A stretch of DNA of 64,000 nucleotides from Pseudomonadota bacterium (GTDB lineage: Bacteria; Pseudomonadota; Alphaproteobacteria; Rhizobiales; Beijerinckiaceae). Position numbers and translations under genes: made by a program. The stretch lies in contig JAIUNP010000002.1 in NCBI GenBank assembly GCA_020161975.1, forward strand, positions 1-64,000. Reading direction: 5' to 3'. The notes below the pieces were generated by a model that did not search any database, was not told where the DNA came from, and saw only the letters and a program-made list of their open reading frames with translations. Within the stretch, counting starts at the first letter, position 1. Each line of letters begins with the position of its first letter. Shown in pieces: positions 3,962 through 36,788 of the stretch.

Positions 3962-4954
3962 TCAGAGCGACTCAAGGAAGGCGAGCAACTGATCGTCCGG
4001 TCGGTATCTGCCTGATCTGACGCCTGGCGCTGTTACCTGCCGCAGAGCATTTTCTTTCAGACGCATATCGGCATGGATGTAGATCTGGGTCGTTTCCACG
4101 GATTCATGGCCGAGCCAAAGCGCGATGACCGTCTGATCGACACCGCTATGCAAAAGTTCCATCGCAGTGCTGTGCCGAAGAGTGTGCGGCGTGACGCGCT
4201 TTCCCGCGAGGCTCGGGCAGGTCTGCGCGGCCGACGCGCAGTATTTTCGGACCAGGTGTTCGAGCGCGTCCCGACTGAGGCGATCGCCGCGGATCGAGGG
4301 GAACAGGGGCCCGGAGCTTTCCTTGCGATCATGAACCCAAGCCTGGATCAGTTTGGCCGTATCACGGCGCAATGGTGTTCGGCGGTCTTTGCGGCCTTTG
4401 CCAACACATTTGACATGGGCGCCGGTGCCAAACACGATATCATCGCAATTCAGGTTGACCAGTTCCGAAGCCCGCAAACCGGTTTGCAAGGCAAGGAGTA
4501 GCAACGCGTGATCCCTCCGCCCGACCCAGGTGGTGCGATCCGGTGCGCCGAGCAATGCGGCGATTTCCTCGGCATCGAGGAAGGTCACGGCCCTTTTCAC
4601 TTGACGCTTGTTCGGCATGGCCAGGATGCGTTGGCAATGATGCAGCCATTCCGGTTCGGTCATCGCGACATAGCGGAAGAATGACCTGATCGCGGCCAGC
4701 CGGGCGTTTCGCGATCTGATTGTGTTGCCGCGGGACACTTCGACGTGGCTGAGGAAGTCCGCCACTATGTCGGCGTCGATGTCGGCCACCTCCAGCTTAG
4801 TCGGGGTCTTGCCGCTGCGGGCTCCGGCATAACGGATCAGCAGGCGGAAGGTGTCGCGGTACGCCGCGATGGTATGACGGCTGGCTTCCATCTGGACGCA
4901 CAGGCGATCTGTGAAGAAGCGCTGCACCAAGGCAGGGAAAGTAGCGGTCCTCAT
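3962..4954 (-). CDS. Tyrosine recombinase, third gene of RIT trio
   Basis: 330 aa. N-terminal SAM-like core-binding domain (about 1-115), then the catalytic domain. Visible active-site residues: R161 in TGLRASELVNL, K186 in GKGRKDRRTPL, H257-x-x-R260 in PHTLRHSTAM, H283 in LGHESVETTQ and nucleophile Y292 in IYIHA. All are present, so it looks catalytically competent. The ATG overlaps the previous stop by four bases (ATGA), implying coupled translation. It resembles XerD/phage-type integrases. In RIT elements all three recombinases are thought to act together; the individual roles are not known from the sequence. Confidence 0.9.
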   Translation of the reverse strand: MRTATFPALVQRFFTDRLCVQMEASRHTIAAYRDTFRLLIRYAGARSGKTPTKLEVADIDADIVADFLSHVEVSRGNTIRSRNARLAAIRSFFRYVAMTEPEWLHHCQRILAMPNKRQVKRAVTFLDAEEIAALLGAPDRTTWVGRRDHALLLLALQTGLRASELVNLNCDDIVFGTGAHVKCVGKGRKDRRTPLRRDTAKLIQAWVHDRKESSGPLFPSIRGDRLSRDALEHLVRKYCASAAQTCPSLAGKRVTPHTLRHSTAMELLHSGVDQTVIALWLGHESVETTQIYIHADMRLKENALRQVTAPGVRSGRYRPDDQLLAFLESL

Positions 4955-5898
4955 TGCACGTTCTCCTCTGCCGAACCATCTCTGAGCCGCGCCGAAGCCA
5001 GTTCCAGAAGCTCGGGCACGGCCTGAAGATACCAGTAGGTGTCCCTCAGCCCCTCATGCCCGAGATAGGTCGTCAACTTGTGCATTTCGCGCGCAGCGTC
5101 ATGTCCGGCGCGGTACCATCCGGTGATAGTCCTTACGGCAAAAGTATGCCGAAGGTCATGGATACGCGGAGGGTTGCCAAGCATCGGCTTCGACCATGTG
5201 CCGCGCAGTCCGACACTCTGACAGACGCGGACGAAGTTTGCTCGCGCCCAGCAATAGTTGGGCCGCACACCCTTACAATTCACGAAGAGCGGTTCCGCCC
5301 GCCGCTCAAGCAGCCGGTCCCGCTCGGCGCAATAGTGCGCCAATCGATCTGAGACATCCGGATCAATCGGAATGAGCCGTTCCTTGCCGTTCTTGCCATT
5401 GCGGACATGCAAAGTCTGCTGTTCGGCATCAAAATCCTCCGAATCGAGGGCGAGGGCTTCCGCAATGCGCATCCCTGTCACGGCGATAAGACCGTAGAGC
5501 ATCGCGCAGGTCAGGCCGCGCATCCCGTAGGTAGACGGCAACTCCCGTGCCGCGCTGATGATCTGGGCGACTTCAGCATCGCTATAGATATATGGCGCGG
5601 GCCGCCTGACTCTGCTCGGGACGAATCCGCGCGGCGGCGGGTTCTCGTGACGTTCATCCATGCTGTGCAGCCATAGTGCGAACAGACGAACAGCGGTGAA
5701 CCTGCTTGACCGGGTTCCACTGCATGCTGGTCGCTGGCGTTTCATCCAGTCAAGGATGAGTTCCCGTGTGACAGAGCCATTTCCGTTCTGATCGACGAAG
5801 GTGGCGAAGCTGCGCAACCGCAATTCGTCGGTTGTCAGCTTGGCCCCGAACATTCGGCGGAGATGGAGATATCGATCGATTTCCGCATGAAGGGTCAT
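4951..5898 (-). CDS. Tyrosine recombinase, second gene of RIT trio
   Basis: 315 aa. Catalytic residues seen: R144 in TGMRIAEAL, K169 or K172 in NGKNGKERLIPI, H247-x-x-R250 in HDLRHTFAVRT, H281 in YLGHEGLRDT, and Y288 or Y290 as nucleophile. The N-terminal domain is shorter than in its neighbours. It overlaps both flanking recombinase genes by four bases, so the three are one translational unit. No frameshift or missing key residue is seen. Confidence 0.9.
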   Translation of the reverse strand: MTLHAEIDRYLHLRRMFGAKLTTDELRLRSFATFVDQNGNGSVTRELILDWMKRQRPACSGTRSSRFTAVRLFALWLHSMDERHENPPPRGFVPSRVRRPAPYIYSDAEVAQIISAARELPSTYGMRGLTCAMLYGLIAVTGMRIAEALALDSEDFDAEQQTLHVRNGKNGKERLIPIDPDVSDRLAHYCAERDRLLERRAEPLFVNCKGVRPNYCWARANFVRVCQSVGLRGTWSKPMLGNPPRIHDLRHTFAVRTITGWYRAGHDAAREMHKLTTYLGHEGLRDTYWYLQAVPELLELASARLRDGSAEENVQ

Positions 5899-7115
5899 TT
5901 CAGGATCTCCTCCATGGGCCAGGGTTGAGCAACGGAACGCAAGTTGGCGATGTCGAGCTTGGCGTAGATCATCGTGGTCGCGCGAGACTTGTGGCGCAGC
6001 ACATCACCGACCTCGTTCAGAGCAACGCCACTGCGCACCATGCGTGTCGCGAGGCTATGGCGCAGCACATGCGATCCGAGGTACCGGGCAGGCATCTCAA
6101 TCTTCAATGCGATGCAAGCTCGGCCAAGGAGCTTGTTGATGATGCGGCTGTCCTTGAACCCAAGGTTGGGTGCATAGGAACGGACGAACAGCACGCGCGT
6201 GGTAGTCGTTGGGCGGGTGTCTCGCAGATACGCGCTGATCGCGGAGCCCACATCTTCTGGAAGTGGGAGGCGGTCGCGCTGTTTGCCCTTGCCTCTGACA
6301 AGCAATTCACCCGCGCGCCAGTCGATGTCGTCGATTTCTATCGCGATAACCTCAGGAACGCGCAGGCCAAGCCGGGCCATAAGCAGGAACATGGCGTGAT
6401 CGCGCTGGCCGCTACTGGATTCCCGACGTACCCATTCCAAAATAGCTTCAATGTCGACTGGTGGCAGGTATCGCGGAAGTCGGGGCTGACGCGTCCGATG
6501 GACCGTTGGTACAGCTGACGACAGATTTGTGGCAGTCAAGCCCCGGGCAAACAGATACTGGAAGAAGCAGCGCAGATGCGATGCCGGCGTCCGTGCCATC
6601 GACAGGCTTTTGCCCTTCTGAACGTGCTCTAAGAACCCAACGATGTCGTGATGCTTGATCAAGGAAGTATCAGGCATCATGTCGCCAAACCGGTAATCCA
6701 GGAAACGGACGGCATACCGCCTGATGTGGTAAACCGAACTTGAGCTCAGACCGCGCTGCCCGAGCAGGAACCTCTCCAAGTCATCCAGCAGTTGATCTTT
6801 GGCGATCTGGGCGTCGGATACATGTGGCGGAATGGCGACGCCGATGTCGATGAGATGGAGGACAAACCGTCTGACCAGGTTCGGAATCTTGATAGCATTC
6901 TTGCGGTGAAAGGGGACCTGCCGCGCGAGGTAGTCGGCCAGTTCCAACGTCAAAGACGTTGGCGCCACGTTCTCGGCCTCAAGCACGCGGCCAAAGCGGC
7001 GAAGTTGGAAGCGATAATGCGAGAGCGCACGGCGCTGCATGTTTGTGGGTGCGAGGCTCTCCTCGAACGACGTGAAGTAGGGGTCGAGGCAGGTTGCCTG
7101 AATTTTCGTGGCCAT
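5895..7115 (-). CDS. Tyrosine recombinase, first gene of RIT trio
   Basis: 406 aa, the longest of the trio, with an extended N-terminal region of about 110 residues before the core-binding domain. Catalytic set: R252 in ARLGLRVPEV, K276 or K278 in RGKGKQRD, H349-x-x-R352 in HVLRHSLATR, H375 in LRHKSRATT and Y384 in IYAKLD. It is the promoter-proximal gene of the leftward trio. The space between its start and the right terminal repeat (7116-7271) holds another inverted copy of the recombinase word (ATTATGCCGAA, 7146-7156). Confidence 0.9.
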   Translation of the reverse strand: MATKIQATCLDPYFTSFEESLAPTNMQRRALSHYRFQLRRFGRVLEAENVAPTSLTLELADYLARQVPFHRKNAIKIPNLVRRFVLHLIDIGVAIPPHVSDAQIAKDQLLDDLERFLLGQRGLSSSSVYHIRRYAVRFLDYRFGDMMPDTSLIKHHDIVGFLEHVQKGKSLSMARTPASHLRCFFQYLFARGLTATNLSSAVPTVHRTRQPRLPRYLPPVDIEAILEWVRRESSSGQRDHAMFLLMARLGLRVPEVIAIEIDDIDWRAGELLVRGKGKQRDRLPLPEDVGSAISAYLRDTRPTTTTRVLFVRSYAPNLGFKDSRIINKLLGRACIALKIEMPARYLGSHVLRHSLATRMVRSGVALNEVGDVLRHKSRATTMIYAKLDIANLRSVAQPWPMEEILK

Positions 7116-10584: not shown

Positions 10585-10953
10585 ATGTCCTCGTACCAAG
10601 TTCAGACCGCCCTCAAACGCCTTGGCCATGACATCCGTGTCGCTCGCAAGAAACGGCGGATGTCTGTCGCGGATTTCTGCGAGCGCCTGGGCGTGACCGA
10701 CAAAACGCTTGCCAAGCTCGAGACGGGAGGTGGTGGTGTGCGGCTCGAGACCTTGGCCATGGCGCTCATGGTTCTGGGCGAGCTTCACCGGCTCGGCGAA
10801 ATGTTGGATCCGGCAAAAGACGATACTGGCCTGGTCCTTGATCAGGCCCGCCTGCCGGAGCGGATCGCCAGCCGCCGCAAGCCGCCGTTCGGCACATCGG
10901 CCACCACGCAGCCGCGATCGGATGAAATCGATGATGAAGGGAGCGCGTTCTGA
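10585..10953 (+). CDS. HipB-like XRE antitoxin, pair 1
   Basis: 122 aa. A Cro/C1-type helix-turn-helix occupies roughly residues 12-65 (LGHDIRVARKKRRMSVADFC, then ERLGVTDKTLAKLETGGGGV). The C-terminal tail is charged and probably disordered, which in HipB-type antitoxins can contact the kinase. Its stop overlaps the start of the HipA-like gene as TGATG. Role by family: DNA-binding antitoxin that holds the HipA kinase inactive and represses the operon. Confidence 0.8.
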   Translation: MSSYQVQTALKRLGHDIRVARKKRRMSVADFCERLGVTDKTLAKLETGGGGVRLETLAMALMVLGELHRLGEMLDPAKDDTGLVLDQARLPERIASRRKPPFGTSATTQPRSDEIDDEGSAF

Positions 10954-12185
10954 TGGTCGTGGCGCGTGTCGTTCTTGGGAATGGGCTGGTTCCAGTCGGT
11001 CGTCTGGTCTTTGAGACGGACGGGCGGCGCGCGCATTCCACCTTCATCTATGACCAGGAATGGATCGACAACCCGCGTGGTTTCGACCTCTGCCCGCAGA
11101 TGCCGCGGGCGAGCGTGCCCTATCACGCCAGCTCCGGCGGGCGCGACAGCCGGAAGCGCGATGTCATCGCCGGGCCCTTTGCGGATACATCCCCGGACAG
11201 CTGGGGCCGCAAGCTGATGCGCCGGGTTCTGGGCGAGGGGGCAACCGAGTTCGACTTCCTGACCACATGCGACGATACCGCACGCCAAGGCGCGCTGCGC
11301 CTCCTGCAGGAAAATGGTGAGCCATTCCCGCAGATCGGAAGGCCCGTCCCGCGTCTGGCTGAAATCGAGGACCTGCTCAAGATCGCACAAAGGTTCGAAC
11401 GCGACCCGGCCGGCGCGGAGCAGGATGCGCTGGATCTCGTCGGCGCCGCCGGAACGCCGGGCGGAGCGCGGCCAAAGGCCAATATGAGGGATGGGGACCG
11501 GCTCTGGCTCGCCAAGTTCACCTCCATCAACGATACTTGGCCGGTGGAACGTCTTGAGGTGGCAACGATGAAGCTCGCCGGGGTCCTTGGTCTGCGCACG
11601 CCGGAATGCCGGCTCGAGTTGCCGGGCAGCTCGCATCCGATCGGTCTCTTCAGCCGTTTTGATCGCCGGGATGGCGGCCGGGTCCCCTATATCTCCGCTC
11701 GCACTGCCCTGGGCAAGGTTGGGCATGCGAGCGGCTTCTACACGGACATCGCCGACATCATTCGCACCATCTCGGCCAGGCCCGGTGATGATCTGCGGGA
11801 AATCTGGCTTCGGATGGTTTTCGGGATCCTTGTCACCAACACGGATGACCACCTGAAGAACCACGGTTTCATCTATGCGGGGCAGAACCTCTGGCGTCTT
11901 TCACCGCTCTTTGACGTCAATCCGCAGCCCCGGCGTCACGCCCAGATGGAAACCGGGATCAGCCCGATCCATGGGCATGAGCCGGATATCGCCGCCGCGA
12001 TCGAAGCGGCCGATTTCTTCGATGTCAATGTGCAGGAAGCCCGGATCTTGGCTCGGGATATGGCGCGAAGCATCCGCGACAGCTGGCGGGACGAGTTGCG
12101 CCGCCAAGGGCTGGGCGGCGCGGAGTTGAACGCTTGTGCTCCGGCCTTCGAACATGAGCGTATGGATGCGGCACTCGGGCTGTAG
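10953..12185 (+). CDS. HipA-like serine/threonine kinase toxin, pair 1
   Basis: 410 aa. HipA N-terminal domain (AGPFADTSPDSWGRKLMRR, about 73-91). ATP-binding loop GAAGTPGGARPKA at 164-176, catalytic NTDDHLKNHG at 296-305, and metal-site LFDVNP at 319-324. The loop has the GGARPKA form common in this branch, but the Ser pair often seen just before it is replaced by Ala-Ala-Gly-Thr; Thr168 may take the regulatory position. Known HipA proteins phosphorylate tRNA-charging enzymes and cause growth arrest; the target here is unknown. Coupled to the antitoxin by a one-base overlap. Confidence 0.85.
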   Translation: MVVARVVLGNGLVPVGRLVFETDGRRAHSTFIYDQEWIDNPRGFDLCPQMPRASVPYHASSGGRDSRKRDVIAGPFADTSPDSWGRKLMRRVLGEGATEFDFLTTCDDTARQGALRLLQENGEPFPQIGRPVPRLAEIEDLLKIAQRFERDPAGAEQDALDLVGAAGTPGGARPKANMRDGDRLWLAKFTSINDTWPVERLEVATMKLAGVLGLRTPECRLELPGSSHPIGLFSRFDRRDGGRVPYISARTALGKVGHASGFYTDIADIIRTISARPGDDLREIWLRMVFGILVTNTDDHLKNHGFIYAGQNLWRLSPLFDVNPQPRRHAQMETGISPIHGHEPDIAAAIEAADFFDVNVQEARILARDMARSIRDSWRDELRRQGLGGAELNACAPAFEHERMDAALGL

Positions 12186-12206: not shown

Positions 12207-12246
12207 ATCGGATAGCCGCCATGCGTGTCGATTGGGGCTATCCGAT
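12207..12246. repeat. 11-bp inverted repeat after hipA-like gene 1
   Basis: ATCGGATAGCC (12207-12217) and GGCTATCCGAT (12236-12246) form a perfect stem with an 18-bp loop, just downstream of the HipA-like stop and upstream of the terminator at 12256. Possible second terminator arm or processing site. Confidence 0.45.
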
Positions 12247-12255
12247 TAAGGCTCT

Positions 12256-12279
12256 GGCCCCGGTCTTTCAACCGGGGCC
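12256..12279. terminator. Bidirectional terminator hairpin (DUF736 module 1)
   Basis: GGCCCCGGT / ACCGGGGCC with a six-base loop, between the convergent HipA-like gene and DUF736 gene 1. A related hairpin sits at the same place in module 2 (17105-17126). Confidence 0.65.
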
Positions 12280-12292
12280 ATTGCTTTGGCGA

Positions 12293-12616
12293 TCAGTCGC
12301 CGCGGCGGGTGTTGGGGCGTGACCAGATCAGGCTCGAGCCCTCGCCGTCTTCGTCATCGAAGAGGTTGGCATAGATCGGGGCGGCGAAGCTCGGATCGTC
12401 CAGCTTCAGGCCCAAATATTCGCGGCCCTCGTTCGATTTCTTCGTCCAGGCGGCGCCGATCTCCGCGCGGCCGACCAGGACCCGGTGGGAGGGCGCGTTT
12501 TCGCCCGAGGCCCGCAGGTCGGGGACGAGGCGCACGCCCTTGGCCTGCAGGCTGAGGGTGAAGATTTCGCCGGTGTAGTCACTGCCGGTCTTCTTGAAGG
12601 TGCCGATGGTTGCCAT
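12293..12616 (-). CDS. DUF736 family protein, copy 1
   Basis: 107 aa starting MATIGTFKKTGSDYTGEIFT at ATG 12616, with CGGAG 9-13 bases upstream. It carries the DUF736 pattern: GEIFTLSLQAKGVRLVPD, a central RVLVGRAEIGAAW, and SNEGREYLGLKLDDPSFAAP. It is predicted to be an all-beta small protein. These genes are common on alphaproteobacterial plasmids; function unknown. It differs from copy 2 at only a few residues (for example SDYTGE versus SEYTGE, GEGSSL versus GEGHSL), showing recent duplication or conversion. Confidence 0.85.
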   Translation of the reverse strand: MATIGTFKKTGSDYTGEIFTLSLQAKGVRLVPDLRASGENAPSHRVLVGRAEIGAAWTKKSNEGREYLGLKLDDPSFAAPIYANLFDDEDGEGSSLIWSRPNTRRGD

Positions 12617-13394
12617 GTTCTTTCTCCGTTTTGCTCTGTTTCGGGCCCGCGTCCTTGCGGCCTCGATGGCGATCGACAGCCCGGAGGCGACCACTGGCGC
12701 ACCCCCCTCTTTGGGGGCCTGACAGCACAGGAGGAACTTTCTTGCCGTGCGAGGAATGACGGCATCGCCGACAGGGGAAGAAAGTTGTGACGACGCTGTT
12801 GCGCCGAAGCGGTCGAGGCGAAGACGTCCTTCGGGCAGATCAGCCCATCACCAGAGGCCGTTGGACGCGGGCTGGGACAGAAGAAACACGGAGATCAAGG
12901 CGACCCTGAAGGCCCGTCAGGTAAGACAGGACAGGCACCACCGGCGATGTGAAACACCTTGGCACACCAGGTCAGCTTGCGCCTCCCCCCTGCCCTGCTG
13001 CCTCGCGGCACCCGCCACTCCACCGGGTTCAGGTCTGCCAGCTGTAGGCAGTGAAAAGGACGAACATCGAACGAGGGACGTGACCAGGCAGAGAAGCAGG
13101 CCCATCCGGGCTGACGCCGCCTGAGTCAGACTGCCAACCTCTTATCGAAAGGACGGGGCGGCCAATGCCCCTGTCTCCGCCCTAGTTCCCGCCGCTTCGA
13201 TGATCACTCGGCAAAGGCCCGTCGAAACGATGTGGAGGCGATGTTCGTCCAAATCGCAAGATACCTTCGGGGCACAGTTGTACGGCCTGCCCAGACTCTC
13301 CTTTATCAATGATCATTCCGGGCCAGACCGGAAACCATCGCAATCCAACGGGTTTCAGGATGACAGCCAAGCGCAGCCCGACTAGCCTCGTCCC
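12617..13394 (-). ncRNA. Conserved structured leader of DUF736 copy 1 (candidate RNA)
   Basis: No gene seen. Compared with the copy-2 leader, two stems keep pairing while bases change: CCCCC/GGGGG (12703-12717) versus CCCCG/CGGGG (17548-17561), and CGGC/GCCG (12760-12770) versus CGGTG/CACCG (17604-17617). A longer stem AACTTTCTT/AAGAAAGTT encloses the second hairpin (12735-12743 with 12778-12786). This supports a folded RNA or a cruciform. The bases 13229-13394 before the next gene show nothing specific. Confidence 0.5.
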
Positions 13395-14222
13395 ATGAGT
13401 GCAGACGATTGGACCGATCTTGAAAACGATGCCTGCGTTGCGAGTTACTTCGCGATGCTCGGGCAGGAATTGGCAGGCGAGGCATACAACAAGGCGGCGC
13501 AGAACCGGCTTTTGCAGGAACAGACGGGCCGCAGCCGGGGTTCAATCGAATTCAAACTCTGCAACATCTCAGCCGCGTTCCGTGGGTTTGGCCTGCCCGC
13601 GATCAGGGGCTATCAACCACGCTTTAACTTCCAGATGGCGCTGGCTGTGGCCGTGTCACGCTGGCTGGCCGGACACCCTGAGTGGGAGCCGTCGTTGATT
13701 AGGACCCACTCCAGCGCGATGGCTGAAGCCGCGCCCCTCTTCATCGGGACTGCCCCTACTCTTCGCAATTTGCCGCCACCCGAACTCGACCAGATGCAAG
13801 CAGTTGCCCGCCGCTTCGACGTTGCCGCCCGGGACGAGCGCAATCGCACCCTGGGTCGCGCTGGAGAAGAGCGTGTCTTTCATCATGAGCGCCAAACGCT
13901 GCGTCACCACGGCCGGGACGATCTGGCACGTCGTGTCCGCTGGGTTTCGCGCGAGGATGGCGATGGAGCAGGCTATGACATCGCCAGCTTCAGCCATGAC
14001 GGGCGTGACCGTCTGATCGAGGTCAAAACAACCAACGGCTGGGACCGTACTCCGTTCCACATTTCGCGCAACGAGCTTGCCGTGGCAGAGGAGCGCCGTC
14101 AGGATTGGTATCTCTTCCGTCTGTACGATTTCGCGCGGACCCCGCAGGCATTTGAACTGCGACCGCCACTTGATGCCCATGTTTCTCTGACCGCCACACA
14201 GTTTCAGGCGAGCTTCCAATGA
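13395..14222 (+). CDS. DUF3883-like predicted restriction-type nuclease
   Basis: 275 aa. The N-terminal half (1-110) is a helical domain beginning MSADDWTDLENDACVASYFA, similar to modules found in HNH/restriction-associated proteins. The C-terminal half (about 150-245) has E158-E159, GYDIASF (D195), RLIEVKTT (E209-x-K211) and TPFHISRNE. That is the DUF3883 pattern, with a PD-(D/E)XK-like D...ExK arrangement, so nuclease activity is predicted. The stop overlaps the next gene's ATG by four bases. The pair could be a defence or DNA-processing unit; this is inference. Confidence 0.75.
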   Translation: MSADDWTDLENDACVASYFAMLGQELAGEAYNKAAQNRLLQEQTGRSRGSIEFKLCNISAAFRGFGLPAIRGYQPRFNFQMALAVAVSRWLAGHPEWEPSLIRTHSSAMAEAAPLFIGTAPTLRNLPPPELDQMQAVARRFDVAARDERNRTLGRAGEERVFHHERQTLRHHGRDDLARRVRWVSREDGDGAGYDIASFSHDGRDRLIEVKTTNGWDRTPFHISRNELAVAEERRQDWYLFRLYDFARTPQAFELRPPLDAHVSLTATQFQASFQ

Positions 14223-15265
14223 TCGGTAATCGCAGATTCCGTCGCACCATCGGCATCGACTATTCAGGGGCGGAAACCGCCGAGGCCAGCCTGAAAGGGC
14301 TGCGCGTCTATCAGACTTTGGGCGACAGCGCCGCCGAAGAGGTATTGCCGCCCGCCGGCCCCAAGAAATACTGGACAAGGCATAGCCTCACCGATTGGCT
14401 GATCGACACCCTGGATGGATCGGTGCCGACAGTTGTCGGCATTGATCACGGCTTTTCGTTTCCCATACGCTACTTCGAGCGGCATGGCCTTGAGCCCGAT
14501 TGGCCGAATTTCCTCGACGATTTCTGTGCGCACTGGCCGACAGATGGCAAGCACACCTATGTCGATTTCGTGCGCGACGGGTCAGTTGGAAATGGCGCGG
14601 CGCGGCAAGGGGAGAGGCATTGGCGCCGGCTGACGGAGGAGGCTGCCGGATCGGCAAAGTCAGTTTTCCATTTCGACGTTCAGGGATCGGTCGCCAAATC
14701 AACCCATGCCGGCATCCCATGGCTGCGCAAAATTCGACAGGCTCGCCCGCAGATCCATTTCTGGCCTTTTGATGGTTGGGAACCTGCTCAGGACGCCTCA
14801 GTGATCCTCGAGGCCTATCCGAGGCTGTGGAGCAGCCTCTATGGCAGCGAGGCCAGAACTCAGGATCAGCACGATGCCTATGCAATCGCGCGCTGGCTTC
14901 AGGAGGCCGCTATCAGCGGTGAAATCAAACAGGCGTTTGCGCCGCCCCAGCCGGAAAGTGTTGCGATGACAGCTCAGGTCGAAGGCTGGATTCTCGGAAC
15001 CACTTGGCCCCCGACGGAAAAGCCCCGGTCCCGCTCAAAGAGTGAAATCCCTCGCAGATCCTCAACCACGGCAACAGGTTACATGAACCGCAATAGTCAG
15101 GAAGTGCTGTCCCGCACCGGACAACCGGGCACTGACCACAACCAGATCGTCTACATCCTGAAATGTCGCCACTGCGCGGCGCGGTACGGTGCGAACGGTT
15201 CAGACGTTTTTCAGCGCCGTTGCCCGGAATGCGGCGATGGAAGGCCCGGAATCCCAACGGGCTGA
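14219..15265 (+). CDS. DUF429-like RNase H-fold protein with C-terminal zinc ribbon
   Basis: 348 aa. The N-terminal domain (about 8-235) shows the DUF429/RNase H-like acidic set: D14 in IGIDYSGAE, D76 in VVGIDHGFSF, E198 in ILEAYPRLW, and D216/D219 in QDQHDAYAIA. A linker of about 70 residues leads to a C-terminal four-cysteine ribbon, C316-x-x-C319 and C335-x-x-C338, around YGANGSDVFQRRCPECG. Predicted metal-dependent nuclease or nucleic-acid binder. It is translationally coupled to the DUF3883-like gene. The two predicted nucleases followed by a hipBA-like pair are unlike any system I can name. Confidence 0.7.
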   Translation: MIGNRRFRRTIGIDYSGAETAEASLKGLRVYQTLGDSAAEEVLPPAGPKKYWTRHSLTDWLIDTLDGSVPTVVGIDHGFSFPIRYFERHGLEPDWPNFLDDFCAHWPTDGKHTYVDFVRDGSVGNGAARQGERHWRRLTEEAAGSAKSVFHFDVQGSVAKSTHAGIPWLRKIRQARPQIHFWPFDGWEPAQDASVILEAYPRLWSSLYGSEARTQDQHDAYAIARWLQEAAISGEIKQAFAPPQPESVAMTAQVEGWILGTTWPPTEKPRSRSKSEIPRRSSTTATGYMNRNSQEVLSRTGQPGTDHNQIVYILKCRHCAARYGANGSDVFQRRCPECGDGRPGIPTG

Positions 15266-15343
15266 GCTTTATCTTTCCGGCTCGGCTTAGCCGCGTTCTA
15301 CTTCCTTTTGCGCCGTGCTGAGACTTCCGCATCGCCCTTGAAC

Positions 15344-15413
15344 GATATTTCCCAATTATAGCTTAACTGGGATATCACGGAAAAATCGTCTTTTGGCTAT
15401 ATTGACGAAATAT
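15344..15413 (+). promoter_or_regulatory. AT-rich operator region of hipBA-like pair 2
   Basis: GATATTTCCCA (15344-15354) faces TGGGATATC (15368-15376), and ATATT-GACGA-AATAT (15399-15413) is a perfect 5-bp inverted repeat just before the start. This AT-rich island in GC-rich DNA is a likely promoter with antitoxin sites. Confidence 0.5.
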
Positions 15414-15418
15414 CGCCG

Positions 15419-15685
15419 ATGGACTATCAGTTTGCTATGGAAAAGCCCCTCACCCATTCCATACGTAGCCTCCGGCAGGCGGCAACGGCCCTTCGCGCCC
15501 GCAGGCGTGCCCAGGGGATGACCCAGAAGCAACTCGCCGAAACGACGGGCACTGCCCAATCCACCATCTCGGATATCGAGACCGGCGTCGTTTCGGTCAG
15601 TCTCGACGTCTATTTGCGGCTTCTGGAAGCCCTCGGGGCAGAGCTGACTGTGACCGGGCGAATACTCGATCAGGACATGAACTGA
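15419..15685 (+). CDS. HipB-like XRE antitoxin, pair 2
   Basis: 88 aa. Helix-turn-helix at about 30-75 (RARRRAQGMTQKQLAETTGT, then AQSTISDIETGVVSVSLDV), the classic HipB/Xre form, and a hydrophobic dimerisation tail (LLEALGAELTV). An alternative start at 15437 (MEKPLTHSI) is possible; neither has a clear Shine-Dalgarno. The HipA-like gene starts two bases after its stop. Unrelated in sequence to pair 1. Confidence 0.82.
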   Translation: MDYQFAMEKPLTHSIRSLRQAATALRARRRAQGMTQKQLAETTGTAQSTISDIETGVVSVSLDVYLRLLEALGAELTVTGRILDQDMN

Positions 15686-15686
15686 G

Positions 15687-17012
15687 ATGGCACGCTTGGC
15701 ACGCAGGCGGGCTGGCATCCGGCGTAGCAAGACTGCAGTCTGGTATGAACGGACACGGGTCGGCACGCTGATCAGGGCTACCGATGGCGGCGTTGCCTTT
15801 TCCTACGATCCAGCATGGCTGGCCTTGGACTTGGCTTTCCCCGTCGCCAGTGTGCTGCCGCTGACCCAAGGAGACTGGAAAGGCGATCCGGTGATTGCCG
15901 CTTTCGACAACCTGCTGCCCGATGCCGAAGGAGAGTTGCGCGAAAAGATCGCAGCGCGCGTAGGCGCCGAAGGCAAAGACGTGTTCTCTCTTCTTTCTGC
16001 GCTTGGGCGGGACTGTGTGGGGGCGCTGCAATTCTTGCCCTTGGAGGAAGAACCCGCGGCCCAAGATATGGATTATCGCCAGATTGCCGAAGACGAGATG
16101 GTCGCCGATCTGAAGAACCTTGCGGTAGCGCCCTTGGCGCTCGGGGATGACGAGGATTTCCGGATCTCCATCGCCGGGGCACAGGAAAAAACTGCTTACC
16201 TTAAAATTGGGGGCCTTTGGGCGAAACCACGTGGGATCACGCCAACGAGCCACATCTTCAAGACCCCGATGGGCATCCTGCCCGGCCCTGATGAAATCGA
16301 CATGAGCGATAGCGTCGAGAACGAGCTGTTCTGCATGACTCTGGCCGGTGAGATCGGCTTGCCAGTTGCCACGGTCAGGAAAATCGTCCTGCCCGGACAG
16401 GTCGCACTCGCGGTCGAACGCTTCGACCGGGTCTGGGATCACGAATCCCTGAAGCGCTTGCCGCAGGAAGACATCTGCCAATCGCTGGGTTTCCCCTCGG
16501 CCCGAAAATACCAAAAGGTAGGTGGCCCCGGCATTGGGCAAATCATGGAACTCCTGCGAGAATCTGACGATCCTATCCGGGATCGGGAAACCTTCTTCCG
16601 CGCCCAGATCTTCTACTTCCTGATAGGCGCCTCTGACGGCCATGCCAAGAATTTCAGCCTGCGACTGGGGCGCCGCGGCCGCTTCCGTCTCGCTCCGCTC
16701 TACGACATCCTGAGTGTAGCTCCTGTCGTCCATGCGGGACGCCTTCAGCGAAAACGCTACCGGCTCGCCATGTCGATCGACGGCCATTACGGCATCGACG
16801 AGATCGTGCCGCGCCACTTTGAGGCAGAGGGCAAAGCCAGTGGGCTTCCCAGGAACCGTGCGTTGGAACTTCTCTCGGACATGGCTGACGGCCTCGGTCC
16901 GGCGCTGGAACGGACAAAGCTCAGCCTGGGCGATCAAGTACCGGGCAGCGTCATCGATCCGATCATCATGGATTCAATGGAGCGCGCGGAACAGGTCCGA
17001 AAGGTCTTGTAA
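15687..17012 (+). CDS. HipA-like kinase toxin, pair 2
   Basis: 441 aa, close to the length of E. coli HipA (440). HipA N-terminal domain with FDNLLPDAEGELREKIAAR (73-91). SIAGAQEKTAY (161-171) carries the serine that is autophosphorylated in the E. coli protein (S161 here). Catalytic GASDGHAKNFSL starts at 314, and PLYDILS at 337-343. All key residues are present, so it is predicted active. By family knowledge it phosphorylates an aminoacyl-tRNA synthetase and induces dormancy. It represents the classical HipA branch, in contrast to pair 1. Confidence 0.9.
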   Translation: MARLARRRAGIRRSKTAVWYERTRVGTLIRATDGGVAFSYDPAWLALDLAFPVASVLPLTQGDWKGDPVIAAFDNLLPDAEGELREKIAARVGAEGKDVFSLLSALGRDCVGALQFLPLEEEPAAQDMDYRQIAEDEMVADLKNLAVAPLALGDDEDFRISIAGAQEKTAYLKIGGLWAKPRGITPTSHIFKTPMGILPGPDEIDMSDSVENELFCMTLAGEIGLPVATVRKIVLPGQVALAVERFDRVWDHESLKRLPQEDICQSLGFPSARKYQKVGGPGIGQIMELLRESDDPIRDRETFFRAQIFYFLIGASDGHAKNFSLRLGRRGRFRLAPLYDILSVAPVVHAGRLQRKRYRLAMSIDGHYGIDEIVPRHFEAEGKASGLPRNRALELLSDMADGLGPALERTKLSLGDQVPGSVIDPIIMDSMERAEQVRKVL

Positions 17013-17104
17013 GGCATCGCCAATAGGCTTTTGCCACTTCCTATCTTTCATTGAATGCCGGGTTTTCAACAGATGTTGAAAATCTTGTTCGGGTTGAAGC
17101 CTTA

Positions 17105-17126
17105 GCCCCGGTCATTCGACCGGGGC
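17105..17126. terminator. Terminator hairpin (DUF736 module 2)
   Basis: GCCCCGGTC / GACCGGGGC with a four-base loop between the convergent HipA-like gene 2 and DUF736 gene 2; counterpart of 12256-12279 with changed loop. Confidence 0.6.
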
Positions 17127-17140
17127 CCTTGCTTTGGCGA

Positions 17141-17464
17141 TCAGTCGCCGCGGCGTGTGTTGGGGCGGGACCAGATGAGGGAGTGGCCCTCACCGTCTTC
17201 GTCATCGAAGAGGTTGGCGTAGATCGGGGCGGCAAAGCTCGGATCGTCCAACTTCAGGCCCAGGTATTCGCGGCCCTCGTTCGATTTCTTCGTCCAGGCG
17301 GCGCCGATCTCGGCGCGGCCGACCAGGACCCGGTGGGAAGGGGCGTTCTCGCCCGATGCCCGCAGATCGGGGACGAGGCGCACGCCCTTGGCCTGCAAGC
17401 TGAGAGTGAAGATTTCGCCGGTGTATTCGCTGCCGGTCTTCTTGAAGGTGCCGATGGTCGCCAT
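17141..17464 (-). CDS. DUF736 family protein, copy 2
   Basis: 107 aa, ATG 17464 with CGGAG upstream exactly as in copy 1. The sequence is almost identical to copy 1. Presence of two (and by inference three) nearly identical genes on one replicon suggests dosage, or repeated capture by recombination between modules. Function unknown. Confidence 0.85.
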   Translation of the reverse strand: MATIGTFKKTGSEYTGEIFTLSLQAKGVRLVPDLRASGENAPSHRVLVGRAEIGAAWTKKSNEGREYLGLKLDDPSFAAPIYANLFDDEDGEGHSLIWSRPNTRRGD

Positions 17465-18211
17465 GTTCTTTCTCCGTTTTGCTGCATCTAGCCCGCGTCC
17501 TTGCGGCCTCGATGGCGATCGACAGCCCGGAGGCGACCGCTGGCGCACCCCGTTCACGGGGCCGGACAGCACAGGAGGAACTTTCTTGTCCCGCGAGGAA
17601 TGACGGTGCCCGCACCGGCAGGGGAAGAAAGTTGTGACAACGCTGTTGCGCCGAAGCGGCCGAGGCGAAGACGTCCTTCGGGCAGATCAGCCCATCACCA
17701 GAGGCCGCCCAGACGCGGGCTGGGACAGACAATCCACGGAGATCAAGGCGACCCTGAAGGCCCATCAGGAAAGACAAGTCAGACACCACCGGCGATGAAA
17801 CCACCTCTGGCTACCGATCAGACTAACCTGCGCTTCCCCCCTGCCTTGCTGCCACGCGGCTCCCGCCGGTCCGCCGAGTTCAGGTCTGCCAGCGTGATGG
17901 CAGGCAAAGGACGATTTTCGAACGAGGGCCGCCACTGGGCCAAGATGCTGGTCGATCCATGCTGAGGCTCTACCCCAACCAGCGCAACTCGAAGATCATC
18001 TGACGGCGAGTCCAATGCCCTCACCCCCTGCCCCAATTCCTACCGCTTCAATGGCCGCTTGGCAAAGGTCCGTCGAAACCTGAGCCTTGCCGGGTGTTTG
18101 GCAGACTCCTTCTCCGTCCAGCAAGGCCTGAATACCCCGCATACCCTTGCGGGTGTTTTCAGTCCGGCATGCGGGATAAATTGGTCCCGACCACACAACG
18201 AGGGAAATATC
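17465..18211 (-). ncRNA. Conserved structured leader of DUF736 copy 2 (candidate RNA)
   Basis: No gene seen. It contains the stem AACTTTCTT (17579-17587) / AAGAAAGTT (17625-17633) and the covarying inner hairpins described for copy 1. Right of the repeat, a hairpin CCCGCA/TGCGGG at 18136-18153 followed by TGTTTT looks like a rightward terminator. Confidence 0.5.
18136..18158 (+). terminator. Possible rightward terminator
   Basis: CCCGCA-tacccT-TGCGGG followed by TGTTTT. It precedes the 81-aa gene and may end transcription entering from the left. Confidence 0.4.
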
Positions 18212-18532: not shown

Positions 18533-20671
18533 TCATTCAGCGGCGATCAGGTGCTGGCGCTCCTCTTCGTCGTCGGAAGCGACCTCGTCGTCTTCGGTCA
18601 GGAAGGCGGGAAGTTCGACCGCGGCATCCTCAGGTGCGGCATGATTGCCAAGGTCGGGATCGTCTTGGCGCAGCGGCTCGGGCAGCCAGCCGGAACCGCC
18701 GAGGAGCCGTTCCGCCTCCCGTGCCATATCGCCCTTCTTGAGGTGCGCGATCAGTTCGACGGCCTGGGCCCCGGCACCTTCGCCTACGGCATCCAGGATG
18801 CGGCTCTTGGTGACACGGCCGAGGTAGTTGGCCACCGTCGGCTTCCAGCCTGCTTCGACCAGATCCAACTGGGTCGTGCGAGCGAGACGATCCGCCTCAC
18901 GCAAACGACGGTCGAGGCCGTGCTGGCTGATCCCCATGCCGCTGTAAGGGTTCGGGCGCTCATAGAGCGCGTTTACCCCGAAGCTGAGGCAATGGGCCAG
19001 CAGCGCCTGGCGGCTGGCCTCGTCCAGGGCGTGGAGCCAGTCCCAGAGGACATCATCCCCTTGCCCCAGCGGCATGTCTGCTTTCCAGCCAGCGTGCCGG
19101 GCGTCGATGTTCTGCGCCGGAAGACTGTCAGCCAGATCTGCGGCCTGAATGGGCAGGTGGATATGCCGCACCGCGGTTTCGAGCGCTGCACCAGAAGCGC
19201 AGGAGACAAAGCAATCTGTGACCAGTTTATGCAGGAGCGCCGTCATCGCGATGCGCGGATTGTTCGCCACCGCATCCCGCAGCGCCAGCGTGCGATGCGC
19301 CGTCAGTTCGATGACGAGCCGTTCGGGCAGCGGCTTGATCGCATCACCCTCGTCCTCGTCATCCTCCTGCCCCCGGTTCTCGCCCGCCATGTTGATCACC
19401 GCCACGCGGGTATCGCTGCGGTCACCTTCCATCGGGGCATCATCCTCCACGGCCCCGCTGGACGGTGCACCCGCGGGCACTGCCCGCTGCTCATCCTCCT
19501 GTCGCACGAAGCCACGTTCGACCAGCAGGCTGCCATCGCTGTCGATGCTGACAAAGGCCCCTGCCCTGCCAAACTGTTCGGGATCGAAAGTCATCGGGCG
19601 GCTGTCGAAGGCACCGAGCATGCGCTCAATCTCACCAAGCCGCTGATCAACGTCCTCAGGCAGGTCGTCGGCCTCAGCATATTCAGCCTCCAGCCGGTCG
19701 TATTCGTCGCGCAGCGCCTCCCGCGTGGCCCGCTCCTCGTCGTTCAGATCGACAGTGGTGCCCATCAGCTCGCGCAGCCCCATGGTGTGACCATAGGGGA
19801 AGCCCGCAGCGACCTCGATCCATTTCCAGCCCTCGGCGGCGATGGTCTCAGCCTCCACCTTCAGCTTCTCGCCCACCAACCGCTCCAGCAGCACGGGATC
19901 TTGCAGCCAGCCCCCGTCATCCTGCTGGAAGAGGTCACGCAGGACAAAGCCACCGGCGGCCTCGTAGGCCTCAAGCCCGAGGAACCGAGCGCGCTTGTCC
20001 GACGCGCGCACGGCAGTCTCGGTGAGCATGCGCCGGATCTGATAGGGTTCCTTCGACCAGGAGTTCTTGACTGCCTCCCAGACCTGCGCCTGCCGTATAT
20101 GATCACCCGAGATGGTGAAGGCCATCAGTTGTTCCAGGGTCATGCCGTCTTCGGCGTAGACGTCCAAGAGCGCGGGCGCGACGGTCACGAGGCGCAGGCG
20201 CTGCTTGACCACCTTCACATCGACGAAGAAGGCCGCCGCGATGGCTTCTTCGGTCATGCCTTTCTCGCGCATAGCTTGGAATGCGCGAAACTGGTCCAGT
20301 GGGTGCAGCGGTGCGCGCTCGATGTTCTCGGCCAGCGAGACCTCGTCGATCAGGACGGAATCATTTGCCGCGCTGACAATGCAGGGCACGGGTGCCGACT
20401 TGGCCAGGCGCTTCTGCTTGACCAGCAGTTCCAACGCGCGGTAGCGGCGGCCGCCAGCGGGCACTTCGAACTTGCCGGTCTCAGCCCCGTCCTCGCCGAT
20501 CACGGGGCGCACGTGCAGGCTCTGTATCAGGCCCCGGCGGGCGATGGACTCGGCCAGTTCATCGACCGAAATCCCAGCCTTCACGCGCCGGACGTTGGAC
20601 TGGCTCAGGACCAGATTGTGGAAGGGGATGTCCCGCGACGAGGCGAGGGTGATTTTCTGCATGTTGGTCAT
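18533..20671 (-). CDS. Large ParB/RepB/Spo0J-like plasmid protein (712 aa)
   Basis: Start at ATG 20671 (MTNMQKITLASSRD) after a leader hairpin. The longer frame would cross that hairpin. An N-terminal ParB nuclease-like domain (GGRRYRAL near 73-80; ENIERAPLHPLDQFRAF near 120) precedes a helix-turn-helix region (TEEAIAAAFFVDVKVVKQRL). A long acidic middle and C-terminal helical region follow, far longer than the 300-aa partition ParB. Such large ParB-like proteins sit beside RadC and DUF932 genes on alphaproteobacterial plasmids; they are distinct from RepB of the repABC system here. The role may be DNA binding or CTP-dependent clamp function; not established. Confidence 0.8.
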   Translation of the reverse strand: MTNMQKITLASSRDIPFHNLVLSQSNVRRVKAGISVDELAESIARRGLIQSLHVRPVIGEDGAETGKFEVPAGGRRYRALELLVKQKRLAKSAPVPCIVSAANDSVLIDEVSLAENIERAPLHPLDQFRAFQAMREKGMTEEAIAAAFFVDVKVVKQRLRLVTVAPALLDVYAEDGMTLEQLMAFTISGDHIRQAQVWEAVKNSWSKEPYQIRRMLTETAVRASDKRARFLGLEAYEAAGGFVLRDLFQQDDGGWLQDPVLLERLVGEKLKVEAETIAAEGWKWIEVAAGFPYGHTMGLRELMGTTVDLNDEERATREALRDEYDRLEAEYAEADDLPEDVDQRLGEIERMLGAFDSRPMTFDPEQFGRAGAFVSIDSDGSLLVERGFVRQEDEQRAVPAGAPSSGAVEDDAPMEGDRSDTRVAVINMAGENRGQEDDEDEGDAIKPLPERLVIELTAHRTLALRDAVANNPRIAMTALLHKLVTDCFVSCASGAALETAVRHIHLPIQAADLADSLPAQNIDARHAGWKADMPLGQGDDVLWDWLHALDEASRQALLAHCLSFGVNALYERPNPYSGMGISQHGLDRRLREADRLARTTQLDLVEAGWKPTVANYLGRVTKSRILDAVGEGAGAQAVELIAHLKKGDMAREAERLLGGSGWLPEPLRQDDPDLGNHAAPEDAAVELPAFLTEDDEVASDDEEERQHLIAAE

Positions 20672-20685
20672 CGGACCAATCTCCG

Positions 20686-20727
20686 CGACGGGCGCCGAGA
20701 GCCTCTCTCTCGGTCTCCAACCCGTCG
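20686..20727 (-). promoter_or_regulatory. Leader hairpin of the ParB-like gene
   Basis: In sense: CGACGGG/CCCGTCG outer stem (the outer CG pair differs from the DUF932 leader) with inner CCGAGAG-loop-CTCTCGG, followed by CGGAG and the start codon. Compared with 22623-22663, the inner stem bases change yet pairing is kept. Confidence 0.6.
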
Positions 20728-20770
20728 AAATCCCCCTGCCCTTCTCTTTCTCTCTCGCCACGGCAGGGCA

Positions 20771-21271
20771 TCAGAGATGGCCTGACCCGCGAAGGCTGAC
20801 CTCCCGGCCCGCGCCCACGATGATGTGGTCGTGCAGGGTCAACCCAAGTACGCCACAGGCCTTCTCCACCTCCTTCGTCATGGCAATATCCGCCTCTGAG
20901 GGCTCGGGATCGCCCGACGGATGGTTATGAACCAGGATCAATGCCGAGGCATTTAGGTCCAGGGCGCGGCGAACGACTTCACGTGGATAGACGGGGACGT
21001 GATCAACCGTGCCGACGCCAAGCCGCTCATCAGAGATCAGCCTGTTCTTGCGGTCCAAGTACAGCACGTGAAATCGCTCGACCTCGCCACGCACCGACAG
21101 GGCGCAATAGTCAATCACCGCTTGCCAGGACGTCAGGACGGGGTTGCGGTTGATGTAGCGGGACAAGATTTCGCGGGCCGCGAAGATGGTGGCCTGCTCC
21201 TGCGCGGTCAGTTCGCAGGTGCCAGAGCGCGGAGAGGCGAATGGGGTGGTTGGTTCAGAAAATCGGGACAT
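20771..21271 (-). CDS. RadC-like JAB/MPN-domain protein
   Basis: 166 aa from ATG 21271 (MSRFSEPTTPFASP). Contains the RadC/JAMM motif HNHPSGDPEPSEAD at 115-128 (metal ligands H115, H117, D128) and the conserved IVGAGREVSLRGSGHL end. It lacks the N-terminal helix-hairpin-helix of chromosomal RadC, as plasmid and genomic-island versions usually do. Predicted Zn-dependent peptidase-like fold, substrate unknown; despite the name, a role in DNA repair is not proven. Leftward, between the DUF932 and ParB-like genes. Confidence 0.88.
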   Translation of the reverse strand: MSRFSEPTTPFASPRSGTCELTAQEQATIFAAREILSRYINRNPVLTSWQAVIDYCALSVRGEVERFHVLYLDRKNRLISDERLGVGTVDHVPVYPREVVRRALDLNASALILVHNHPSGDPEPSEADIAMTKEVEKACGVLGLTLHDHIIVGAGREVSLRGSGHL

Positions 21272-21409
21272 TTGAGTCTCGTGAGTTGAGCCGATTAACA
21301 CCCCGGACTGGCAGCAACGCGCTGCCCGGGCGGAGTTGGCCGGGATGGGGAAAGGGGAAGAAAATGGTGCGGGCAGAGGGCCGCCGGGCCCCCTGCCCTG
21401 CCGCAAACC

Positions 21410-22609
21410 TCAACTGACGCGGTCGAGGAGTTTCTTGGCCCGCCCTTCCATGTCGAGGCGTGCATCTTGCTGGGTCTTGTCGCGCGCGAGGCGTGTAATC
21501 CCTTGAACAAAATCAAAAATCGACTCCGGTGGGCGACCCTCCTCCATCAGAACCTTTTCGATGATCTTGCCGGATTCCACTTTCGAGAAGCCGCGCTTCC
21601 GCAGAAAGTCATCCCGATCCTCATCGGTGCGCGCCACGATCTGCTGCCGCGCAGCCTTGATGCCGTTCACGAAGCCCTGCGCCGACGAATTGGCGAAGCG
21701 TGTCAGAGCCGGTGCTGCCTCATGAGCAAAGCGGGTCGCGGCGTATTTCGAATGGCGGATGGTGATCTCCTGGAAGTCCTCAACGCCCCAGAGATTGCGG
21801 TTTTGGCACACCGCACGGAGATAAAAGCTTGCGATTCCAAGGGTTTTTGCGCCAACCTCGGAATTCCAGCAGTAGAACCCCCGGAAATAGAGGTCCGGCG
21901 AACCATCAGCCAACCGGCCGGCCTCGATCGGGTTGTGGTCATCGACCAGGAACAGGAAGACATCCCGATCCGATGCATAAAGCGTCGTCGTGTCGCGGCT
22001 GATCTCGACATCGGGGTTGTAGACCCCGGTCGACCAGTCGAGCACGCCCGGCACCTTCCAGCGCGTGTCACCCGTGCCGTTGCCTGCGATGCGCTGCACC
22101 GCCTCGACGAGTTCATGGTCATGGATCCGACCGTAGTCGGGGCCGGTCACCGCGCGCAGTTCGGTGCGACCATCCTCAGTCTCGAAGGCTTTCACCTGCT
22201 CAGCGCGGTGGTTGCTCAGACCGTACTGAAGATTGATGCCGGCCAAAGGCGCGGGCAGTTGCCGCAGGTAGGAGGCTGGCGCGCCGACAATGCTGGCCAG
22301 CTGGCCAAAGGCCCAGTGCGTCGGCGCCACGGGCTCCTTGGCTTTGGGGAGGACCAGATGCAACCGATCAGCACTGTCACGCGAAGCCTCAACCCGGATC
22401 TCCGCTGTTTCGACCACCCGAGAACGGCTCCGCTCGGAACGACCCTTCACCGAGGCCCAGAGATCGTCGAGCGACAGAAAGCGCTCGTCATCGGGGCGGT
22501 TGAACCATTCGGACGACACCCGCCCGTTCCGCTCGCCCCGGCTCACATCCACCTTGTAGCCGCCCGACGTCACCGGCCGCACGGGGTCCAGAATTTCCAT
22601 TGTGTTCAT
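21410..22609 (-). CDS. DUF932 (phage/plasmid-like) protein
   Basis: 399 aa, ATG 22609 (MNTMEILDPVRPVT) with GGAG eight bases upstream; a GTG three codons earlier is an alternative. The DUF932 core is visible: WFNRPDDERFLSLDDLWASV, SYLRQLPAPLAGINLQYGL, and a catalytic-looking FLVDDHNPIEAG, with YFRGFYCWNSEVGAKTLGIA. This family is common on phages and conjugative plasmids near RadC and ParB-like genes. Function unknown. It has the best-formed leader hairpin of the group. Confidence 0.85.
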   Translation of the reverse strand: MNTMEILDPVRPVTSGGYKVDVSRGERNGRVSSEWFNRPDDERFLSLDDLWASVKGRSERSRSRVVETAEIRVEASRDSADRLHLVLPKAKEPVAPTHWAFGQLASIVGAPASYLRQLPAPLAGINLQYGLSNHRAEQVKAFETEDGRTELRAVTGPDYGRIHDHELVEAVQRIAGNGTGDTRWKVPGVLDWSTGVYNPDVEISRDTTTLYASDRDVFLFLVDDHNPIEAGRLADGSPDLYFRGFYCWNSEVGAKTLGIASFYLRAVCQNRNLWGVEDFQEITIRHSKYAATRFAHEAAPALTRFANSSAQGFVNGIKAARQQIVARTDEDRDDFLRKRGFSKVESGKIIEKVLMEEGRPPESIFDFVQGITRLARDKTQQDARLDMEGRAKKLLDRVS

Positions 22610-22622
22610 GACAGTCACTCCG

Positions 22623-27652: not shown

Positions 27653-27674
27653 GTCGCCCCTTAGCTTCGCAGGA

Positions 27675-27700
27675 CTTTTCGCGATGTTTCACGCGAAAAG
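27675..27700. repeat. Inverted repeat upstream of repC start
   Basis: CTTTTCGCG (27675-27683) and CGCGAAAAG (27692-27700), spacer eight bases, about 20 bp before the repC ATG in leftward sense. The middle, TGTTTCACGCGAAA, also resembles the general parS word. A hairpin here could sequester the repC initiation region and be the target affected by the antisense RNA. Confidence 0.5.
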
Positions 27701-27714
27701 ACAACAAAAATCAG

Positions 27715-27732
27715 GTCCACCGAATCGGTGAC
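27715..27732. promoter_or_regulatory. Degenerate parS-like site before repC
   Basis: GTCCACCG-AAT-CGGTGAC: the left arm matches the other two sites, the right arm only partly. Confidence 0.4.
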
Positions 27733-27734
27733 TC

Positions 27735-27822
27735 TTGACCGCTGTGTGGGAGATTGCTACATCATAGGTGCAAATCGATGATGGGCTCTCCGAGGGAAAC
27801 CTTGGGGGGCTCTTTTCTTTCT
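27735..27822 (+). ncRNA. incA: Predicted countertranscribed RNA (incA type) between repB and repC
   Basis: On the plus strand, TTGACC (27735-27740), a 17-bp gap and CTACAT (27758-27763) form a promoter. A 13-bp hairpin (27783-27795 with 27800-27812, GAAA loop) followed by TTTTCTTTCT ends the transcript, giving an RNA of about 50 nt. Four of the pairs are G-U in the plus-strand RNA but become A-C mismatches in the repC mRNA, so the terminator works only in the antisense direction. Position and size match ctRNA genes of repABC plasmids, which limit RepC synthesis and determine incompatibility. Confidence 0.75.
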
Positions 27823-27872
27823 GGCCTTCGCTACTCTCCTTCTGCTCGAGGTTGCCTCATTATGGCCGAGGG

Positions 27873-36567: not shown

Positions 36568-36788
36568 ACACTCGCAAATTGATGATAGGCGCGTCGCTCC
36601 GCCCGCTGTTTCTCCTGATCGGCCTCGCGGCGCTGTCCGCCTGCGAAGGCGTCGAAACTGGGGCCGTCTCGCCTTGCCACGGCCAATTCCGCGCCGAGGG
36701 CAAGTATTTCGCGGCGCGCACACAGACCGACGGGAGCCGCATCGTGGTCAGCACGATGAGCGCCCCGACTGTGGCTTGCGGGGACTGA
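36564..36788 (+). CDS. Small lipoprotein of the virB operon (VirB7 candidate)
   Basis: 74 aa from ATG 36564. Signal sequence with lipobox LSAC, so the mature protein starts with Cys followed by EGVETG, and carries two further cysteines (SPCHGQ, VACGD). Size, lipidation and operon position fit a VirB7-type outer-membrane lipoprotein that supports VirB9, although VirB7 normally lies next to virB8. Assigned by context only. Confidence 0.6.
   Translation: MNTRKLMIGASLRPLFLLIGLAALSACEGVETGAVSPCHGQFRAEGKYFAARTQTDGSRIVVSTMSAPTVACGD

Follow-up and report, generated by a model that had tools for sequence, protein, structure and literature searches.

A covarying leader element upstream of DUF736 and other genes, a candidate single-stranded DNA signal of the conjugative leading region

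Duplicated DUF736 modules and their leaders

The window analysed here is a stretch of 64,000 nucleotides from a bacterium of the Beijerinckiaceae (positions 1 to 64,000 of contig JAIUNP010000002.1, assembly GCA_020161975.1), in which a DUF736 gene and the leader upstream of it occur twice. A first-pass annotation, made from the letters alone, had described two such modules (12256-13228 and 17105-18079), and self-comparison of the window places them in register with an offset of 4,844-4,851 bp. Positions 12241-12540 and 17089-17388 are 90% identical, and the leader blocks are 76-97% alike between 12636-13228 and 17482-18079. Both DUF736 genes lie on the minus strand, copy A at 12293-12616 (Pfam PF05284, 113 bits; ATG at 12616 with the Shine–Dalgarno (SD) sequence GGAG) and copy B, from the PF05284 search of the genome, at 17141-17464. 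A terminator-like hairpin, GGCCCCGG..CCGGGGCC (12256-12279, minus strand), recognized as an inverted repeat and from the direct repeat, follows copy A. The AlphaFold model of DUF736 (pLDDT 88.7) has eight strands; compared with the PDB it gave no match better than E 0.3.

The conserved leader had been put at about 600 bp. That length is repeated in both modules, but conservation beyond the closest relatives is confined to the proximal ~280 nt (12614-12894 and 17462-17742), up to about 12894 and 17742; the distal ~330 nt (12895-13228) are common only to the copies of this genome and, partly, to its nearest relatives. BLAST of the leader against plasmids returned 231 records, mainly over query positions 370-631 (window 12610-12870), from Agrobacterium, Rhizobium, Sinorhizobium, Bradyrhizobium, Mesorhizobium, Novosphingobium, Methylocystis and others. 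In an Rfam scan of the window nothing reaches the gathering threshold, and the divergent loci gave only sub-threshold Rfam matches, which lie elsewhere and on the opposite strand. The leaders belong to a widespread element family that has no Rfam match and was previously uncatalogued.

In sense coordinates (minus strand) element A, as a whole folded unit, occupies 12614-12894; the span is conserved in relatives, and a DNA fold of the plus strand, the putative folding strand, closes over it. Helix P1 joins the region before the ATG to the 5′ end segment of the element, its proximal arm (12623-12654), which includes the SD, pairing with a distal, anti-SD arm (12863-12894). Hairpin H5 (12643-12664; sense loop AAGGA, of the ANGG type) is an alternative to P1. 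The CCCCC/GGGGG hairpin (12703-12717) is followed by the 3′ arm of the covarying stem P2, AAGAAAGTTCCTCCTGTGCTGT (12722-12743), a conserved internal-loop core, CCCCTG..P3..CATTCCTCGC (12744-12777), that encloses hairpin P3 (CGGC-GAT-GCCG, 12760-12770), the P2 5′ arm ACAGCGTCGTCACAACTTTCTT (12778-12799) and a conserved 5′ domain, TGATCTG..CGAAG.. (12811-12842, alignment A1). Element B (17462-17742, minus strand) has the corresponding P1 proximal arm (17471-17509), CCCCG/CGGGG hairpin (17548-17561), P2 3′ arm (17566-17587), core loop (17588-17624) with P3 as CGGTG/CACCG (17604-17617), P2 5′ arm (17625-17646) and P1 distal arm (17702-17742). The hairpins that the first-pass annotation quoted for the two copies are thus present as given. 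The outer stem AACTTTCTT/AAGAAAGTT, which it called invariant, is found in both copies and is identical between them, but varies across relatives with full compensation. A covariance model (R1) recovers both copies at E about 1e-17, matching A at 12696-12806 (74.8 bits, E 4.5e-17) and B at 17540-17653 (78.1 bits, E 6.3e-18), both on the minus strand.

Covariation and the folding strand

Among 223 DUF736 genes collected with their upstream DNA, about 150 leaders have a recognizable core. It consists, in order, of P2 (20-22 bp) ending in TT, CCCC(TG), hairpin P3, (CAT)TCCTCGCG, sometimes an extra hairpin, and finally C and the AA of the other P2 arm. The distance from the end of P2 to the start codon is near-constant (97-118 nt). 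Some leaders have a perfect P2 whose own sequence is entirely different (L157, 22 bp; L182, 14 bp), and 28 divergent P2 arms contain 413 Watson–Crick cells where 272 +/- 13 are expected. In a 47-sequence alignment 75.0% of P2 cells are paired, compared with 63.9% in shuffles, of which none out of 500 reaches the observed value; the covariation score is 0.300 (0.129 in shuffles), and a one-column shift of the partner lowers pairing from 75% to 41-47%. Double changes occur in 23 of the 26 P2 pairs. The family thus bears out a structured, covarying leader far better than a pair of copies could. The tree carries 137 Watson–Crick-to-Watson–Crick events in P2. P1 scores 12.0 with its own partner and 8.4 with swapped partners (72 leaders, p = 8e-22). 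RNAalifold gave weak structure on a close set, because close sequences hardly vary.

An extra palindrome (CACCCC..GGGGACCCCG) recurs inserted in the hairpin tips of different elements, upstream of DUF736 in L010, L042, L046, L081, L112, L160, L206 and L236 and also in L316, L330 and L340, as if a small mobile palindrome preferred hairpin loops.

An mRNA fold tolerates G.U and not A.C, and a fold of the complementary strand does the reverse. On the tree, P2 passes from Watson–Crick to sense A.C 59 times and to G.T 16 times. At the inner, best-paired positions the events number 40 for A.C and 2 for G.T, the opposite of what a cis-regulatory mRNA with a sense fold and tolerated G.U would give. 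The observed-to-expected ratios at these positions are 0.61-0.84 for A.C and 0.15-0.26 for G.T, and pyrimidine–pyrimidine mismatches, which are purine–purine on the complementary strand, outnumber purine–purine ones by 41 to 7, base composition linking the two classes to each other; the outer positions have little A.C/G.T asymmetry. The A.C:G.T ratio is 8:1 in P3 and 21:5 in H5, and in P1 there are 191 A.C (184 expected) and 73 G.T (121 expected, 0.6 of expectation).

GNA mini-hairpin loops of the d(GCGAAGC) type are extraordinarily stable in DNA. Antisense hairpin tips of the form nC(GNA)Gn number 163, against 46.6 +/- 6 in shuffles, and antisense C-GNA-G triloops whose flanking bases also pair occur in 63 of 70 thinned leaders, the middle base being free (GAA 59, GCA 49, GGA 44, GTA 11). 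On the sense strand such tips number 38, for 21 expected, and in coding-region controls GNA tips fall below expectation. The sense A.C intermediates together with the antisense GNA tips indicate that the template strand folds, and the folding molecule is probably DNA rather than mRNA.

Downstream genes and orientation toward the relaxase

Of 48 selected genomes, 47 contain a covariance-model match; in a phylum-wide sample 47 of 398 genomes match at E <= 1e-5, and six of these come from other classes. Besides the elements before DUF736, others are common 2-5 kb further upstream, giving several copies per plasmid or integrative and conjugative element (ICE). The next gene at these upstream elements is mostly DUF2493 (YAcAr/SLOG); in single cases it is an ArdC anti-restriction gene (L315) or a ParB-like (ParB_N) gene (L338). 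The element is therefore not private to DUF736, and the range of downstream genes fits a shared signal of leading-region genes. Present in several copies just upstream of the start codons of these different genes, it is not an origin, silencing or recombination site in the senses that had been suggested. In the literature searched, only two papers mention DUF736 and none joins DUF2493 with 'conjugative'. Five or more elements are clustered on one contig in G710 (contig C203) and in G380 (contig C1, 4.94-4.99 Mb), some of them before unrecognized small proteins or transposases; these are possible leading-region islands.

On pBAL398.1 the order is leader-DUF736, RepA, ParA, TraF-like peptidase, second DUF736, transglycosylase, a 245-bp gap, VirD2-type relaxase, TraG and Trb genes. 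Of the leader-bearing DUF736 genes within 60 kb of a VirD2-type relaxase gene, 41 of 43 share its strand and are located upstream, as are 87 of 90 covariance-model elements near such a relaxase (at 2.2-46 kb). On relaxase-bearing contigs of further genomes 13 of 14 elements are co-oriented, positions being compared by eye. The few elements whose orientation does not suit the nearest relaxase (G729:C6:228996-229099 on the plus strand, G550:C7 and G532:C17) may have been rearranged or may depend on a different relaxase. Alignment of the gap that precedes the relaxase shows, on the opposite strand, an inverted repeat and then TTTATCCTG-CC or close variants, which we take to resemble the nic of RP4. 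Searching the pBAL398.1 origin of transfer (oriT) for ATCCTG alone gave no match, the motif and its variants appearing in the aligned gap, and the pAMI8 gap adjoining MobC has no clear nic orientation. The oriT is located between the elements and the relaxase, a placement taken also from ICEMlSymR7A, in which rdfS-traF-msi107 lies upstream of oriT and rlxS (PMC11963761). All Mesorhizobium ICEs carry DUF736 genes, often duplicated (PMC8627217). The elements are not themselves oriT, lying 2-46 kb from the relaxase with several per plasmid rather than one at nic.

Co-orientation, with the RP4-like nic on the opposite strand, argues that the folding strand is the transferred strand and that the element-led genes belong to the leading region. 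Their template strand would be the first to enter a recipient, and it is also the strand that folds according to the covariation. The complete plasmid pAMI8 has a relaxase gene, MobC, two DUF736 genes and DUF2493 in succession on a single strand, and three elements precede the last three of these genes. In agreement with pAMI8, the contig of the window has its relaxase and MobC-like genes (at 68292-70705) and, at its right end, a DUF2493 gene all on the minus strand. DUF736 paralogues directly before the relaxase are without the element. A second DUF736 clade (MxQIG..DAENAPDYR) without it is found between traF and the transglycosylase beside oriT, ~1.3 kb before the relaxase and close behind another gene (L103-L105, L107-L110 and similar).

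Upstream of module B, co-oriented ParB-like, RadC and DUF932-like genes (18533-22618, minus strand; Pfam ParB_N and RadC) would form part of the leading region; the DUF932-like gene is named from its sequence and has no Pfam match. The ParB order and orientation are the same in Ketogulonicigenium pYP1. A HipB-HipA toxin–antitoxin pair (15419-17012, plus strand; Pfam HTH_3, HipA_C, Couple_hipA) lies between the modules, as does a protein at 14219-15265 with no Pfam match; further cargo near the modules comprises a HipA gene (10953-12185) and a NO VEIN C-terminal domain protein (13395-14222). A third copy of the leader runs off the contig edge (window 7-349, minus strand), and contigs C320 and C305 of G000 start with further DUF736 or leader fragments; with fragments at contig ends, the repeat probably broke the assembly. 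The window contig also carries repABC genes (26576-30028) and a VirB/Trb-type type IV secretion operon (34099-43974), which mark it as a conjugative repABC plasmid, and three adjacent tyrosine recombinase genes near its left end (3962-7115, minus strand), reminiscent of a recombinase-in-trio element.

Interpretation and comparison with known systems

We hold with moderate confidence that the ~280-nt element is a single-stranded DNA (ssDNA) signal for early expression of leading genes. It would fold while the transferred strand (T-strand), which serves the downstream gene as template, has no complementary strand, and it sits in the leading region, the first part to enter the recipient, directly upstream of early genes. 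The fold may offer a double-stranded platform on the incoming ssDNA at which transcription, or a primer, starts, RNA polymerase (or primase) being recruited by the folded T-strand before the second strand exists, so that DUF736, DUF2493, ArdC and ParB-like proteins could be made ahead of it. Once the plasmid is double-stranded, read-through mRNA would carry the distal arm, which would pair with the SD and keep the gene quiet; a transcript started inside the fold would lack this pairing. The sequences show the two covarying helices, the template-strand bias, the DNA-type loops, the leading-region position and the several unrelated targets; transcription from ssDNA is an inference. More tentatively, and at rather less than even confidence, the elements may constitute a new family of T-strand signals without sigma-70 boxes that, in Alpha- and other Proteobacteria, drives early leading-region genes of conjugative plasmids and of ICEs, is recognized by its folded shape and its CCCC/TCCTCGCG internal loop instead of as a classical promoter, and silences the gene by SD–distal arm pairing once the plasmid is double-stranded.

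Several observations weigh against an early-expression signal. A -35/-10 pair (<=2 mismatches each) is present in only 6 of 153 leaders and the boxes are not conserved, canonical boxes having been used where alphaproteobacterial sigma factors may differ. Relatedness among the sequences means that the counts are not independent. The DNA folding energies of T-strand and sense strand were not used, because coding controls are equally biased in the same direction. For the DUF2493 class of elements the contrast between A.C (5) and G.T (2) is too small to be telling, although the GNA loops agree (44 vs 11). The orientation of the window elements to their own relaxase assumes a circular plasmid.

Of the functional RNA and the DNA structure originally proposed, these results favour a DNA structure, on the transferred strand, an RNA being disfavoured by the A.C bias, the GNA loops and the orientation toward oriT. 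A structured antisense RNA, transcribed opposite to DUF736 and controlling the leader, would leave the same strand bias through its own fold, since the asymmetry fits any single-stranded nucleic acid of template-strand sequence; we regard it as quite unlikely, given that C-G-closed GNA triloops are the extra-stable type of DNA and not of RNA, that near-uniform orientation toward oriT would be unexpected and that Rfam has no match. A sense mRNA leader, riboswitch-like or bound by DUF736, that sequesters the SD would account for the anti-SD arm and for the ANGG loop of H5 near the SD, but P2 avoids sense G.U and tolerates A.C, and DUF2493, ArdC and ParB-like genes have the element in front of them as well, which makes this very unlikely. 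The inverted repeats, and modules that flank cargo and toxin–antitoxin genes, could also be those of a double-stranded DNA feature (protein-bound repeats, or a cruciform or recombination site) duplicated with the gene; neither double-stranded recognition nor a cruciform would favour A.C over G.T on one strand, and the idea is hardly credible.

A single-strand initiation (priming) site for complementary-strand synthesis, of DnaG or PriA type and with only a secondary relation to the gene, would share with the early-expression signal its T-strand fold, its leading-region location and its several copies per plasmid or ICE. The nearly fixed start-codon distance and the inclusion of the SD in P1 point to gene expression instead, and priming as the explanation is unlikely, although the two roles are not mutually exclusive. 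Other candidates were dropped: a riboswitch or DUF736 autoregulation (the element precedes other genes and covariation fits the other strand), a coding upstream open reading frame (broken by one-base indels), a CsrA/Rsm-type leader (Rfam RsmW only at E 3.8; an ANGG loop without constant GGA) and a group II intron (raised by a GTGCG motif, without support). The near-constant position before start codons argues against an integron attC-like folded site.

Like the structured cis-regulatory RNAs of Rfam, the element is a leader that is conserved and covaries and whose SD is part of a helix; unlike them, it has no family match and its covariation fits the other strand. With the leading-region anti-defence islands, as far as these are described in the main text of PMC11541004, it shares ArdC- and ParB-like genes and an orientation suited to T-strand templating; that main text contains neither 'DUF' nor 'Alphaproteobacteria', and its island passages do not include the element. 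For F-type plasmids it is established that genes are expressed early, from plasmid DNA that arrives as a single strand: Frpo1 and Frpo2 of F, which are 92% alike and lie about 5 kb apart with flmAB between them, support transcription from folded ssDNA before the second strand is made (PMC9849209). Compared by description and layout rather than by sequence, the present element is like Frpo and the ssi sites of F and ColIb-P9 (PMC9849209; PMC11541004, main text) in lying ahead of early genes within the leading region, and in a T-strand that is the template and, here as judged from covariation, folds as ssDNA. Elements of the window type differ in having no conserved -35/-10 boxes, for which reason the element is not filed as Frpo, in a fold that is longer, has several helices and contains an internal loop of conserved sequence (CCCCTG / CATTCCTCGCG), and in serving other genes (DUF736, DUF2493), mainly in Alphaproteobacteria. 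If the proposal is correct, it would extend early expression from ssDNA, with another architecture, to large plasmids of mating-pair formation type T (MPF_T) and to the symbiosis ICEs of rhizobia and related bacteria, and would mark the unknown genes DUF736 and DUF2493 as entry genes; strand-resolved covariation (A.C vs G.T) combined with GNA loops would provide a general test for functional ssDNA folds in genomes. The layout of the window, two copies 4.85 kb apart with HipBA between them, is like that of Frpo1 and Frpo2 around flmAB in F.

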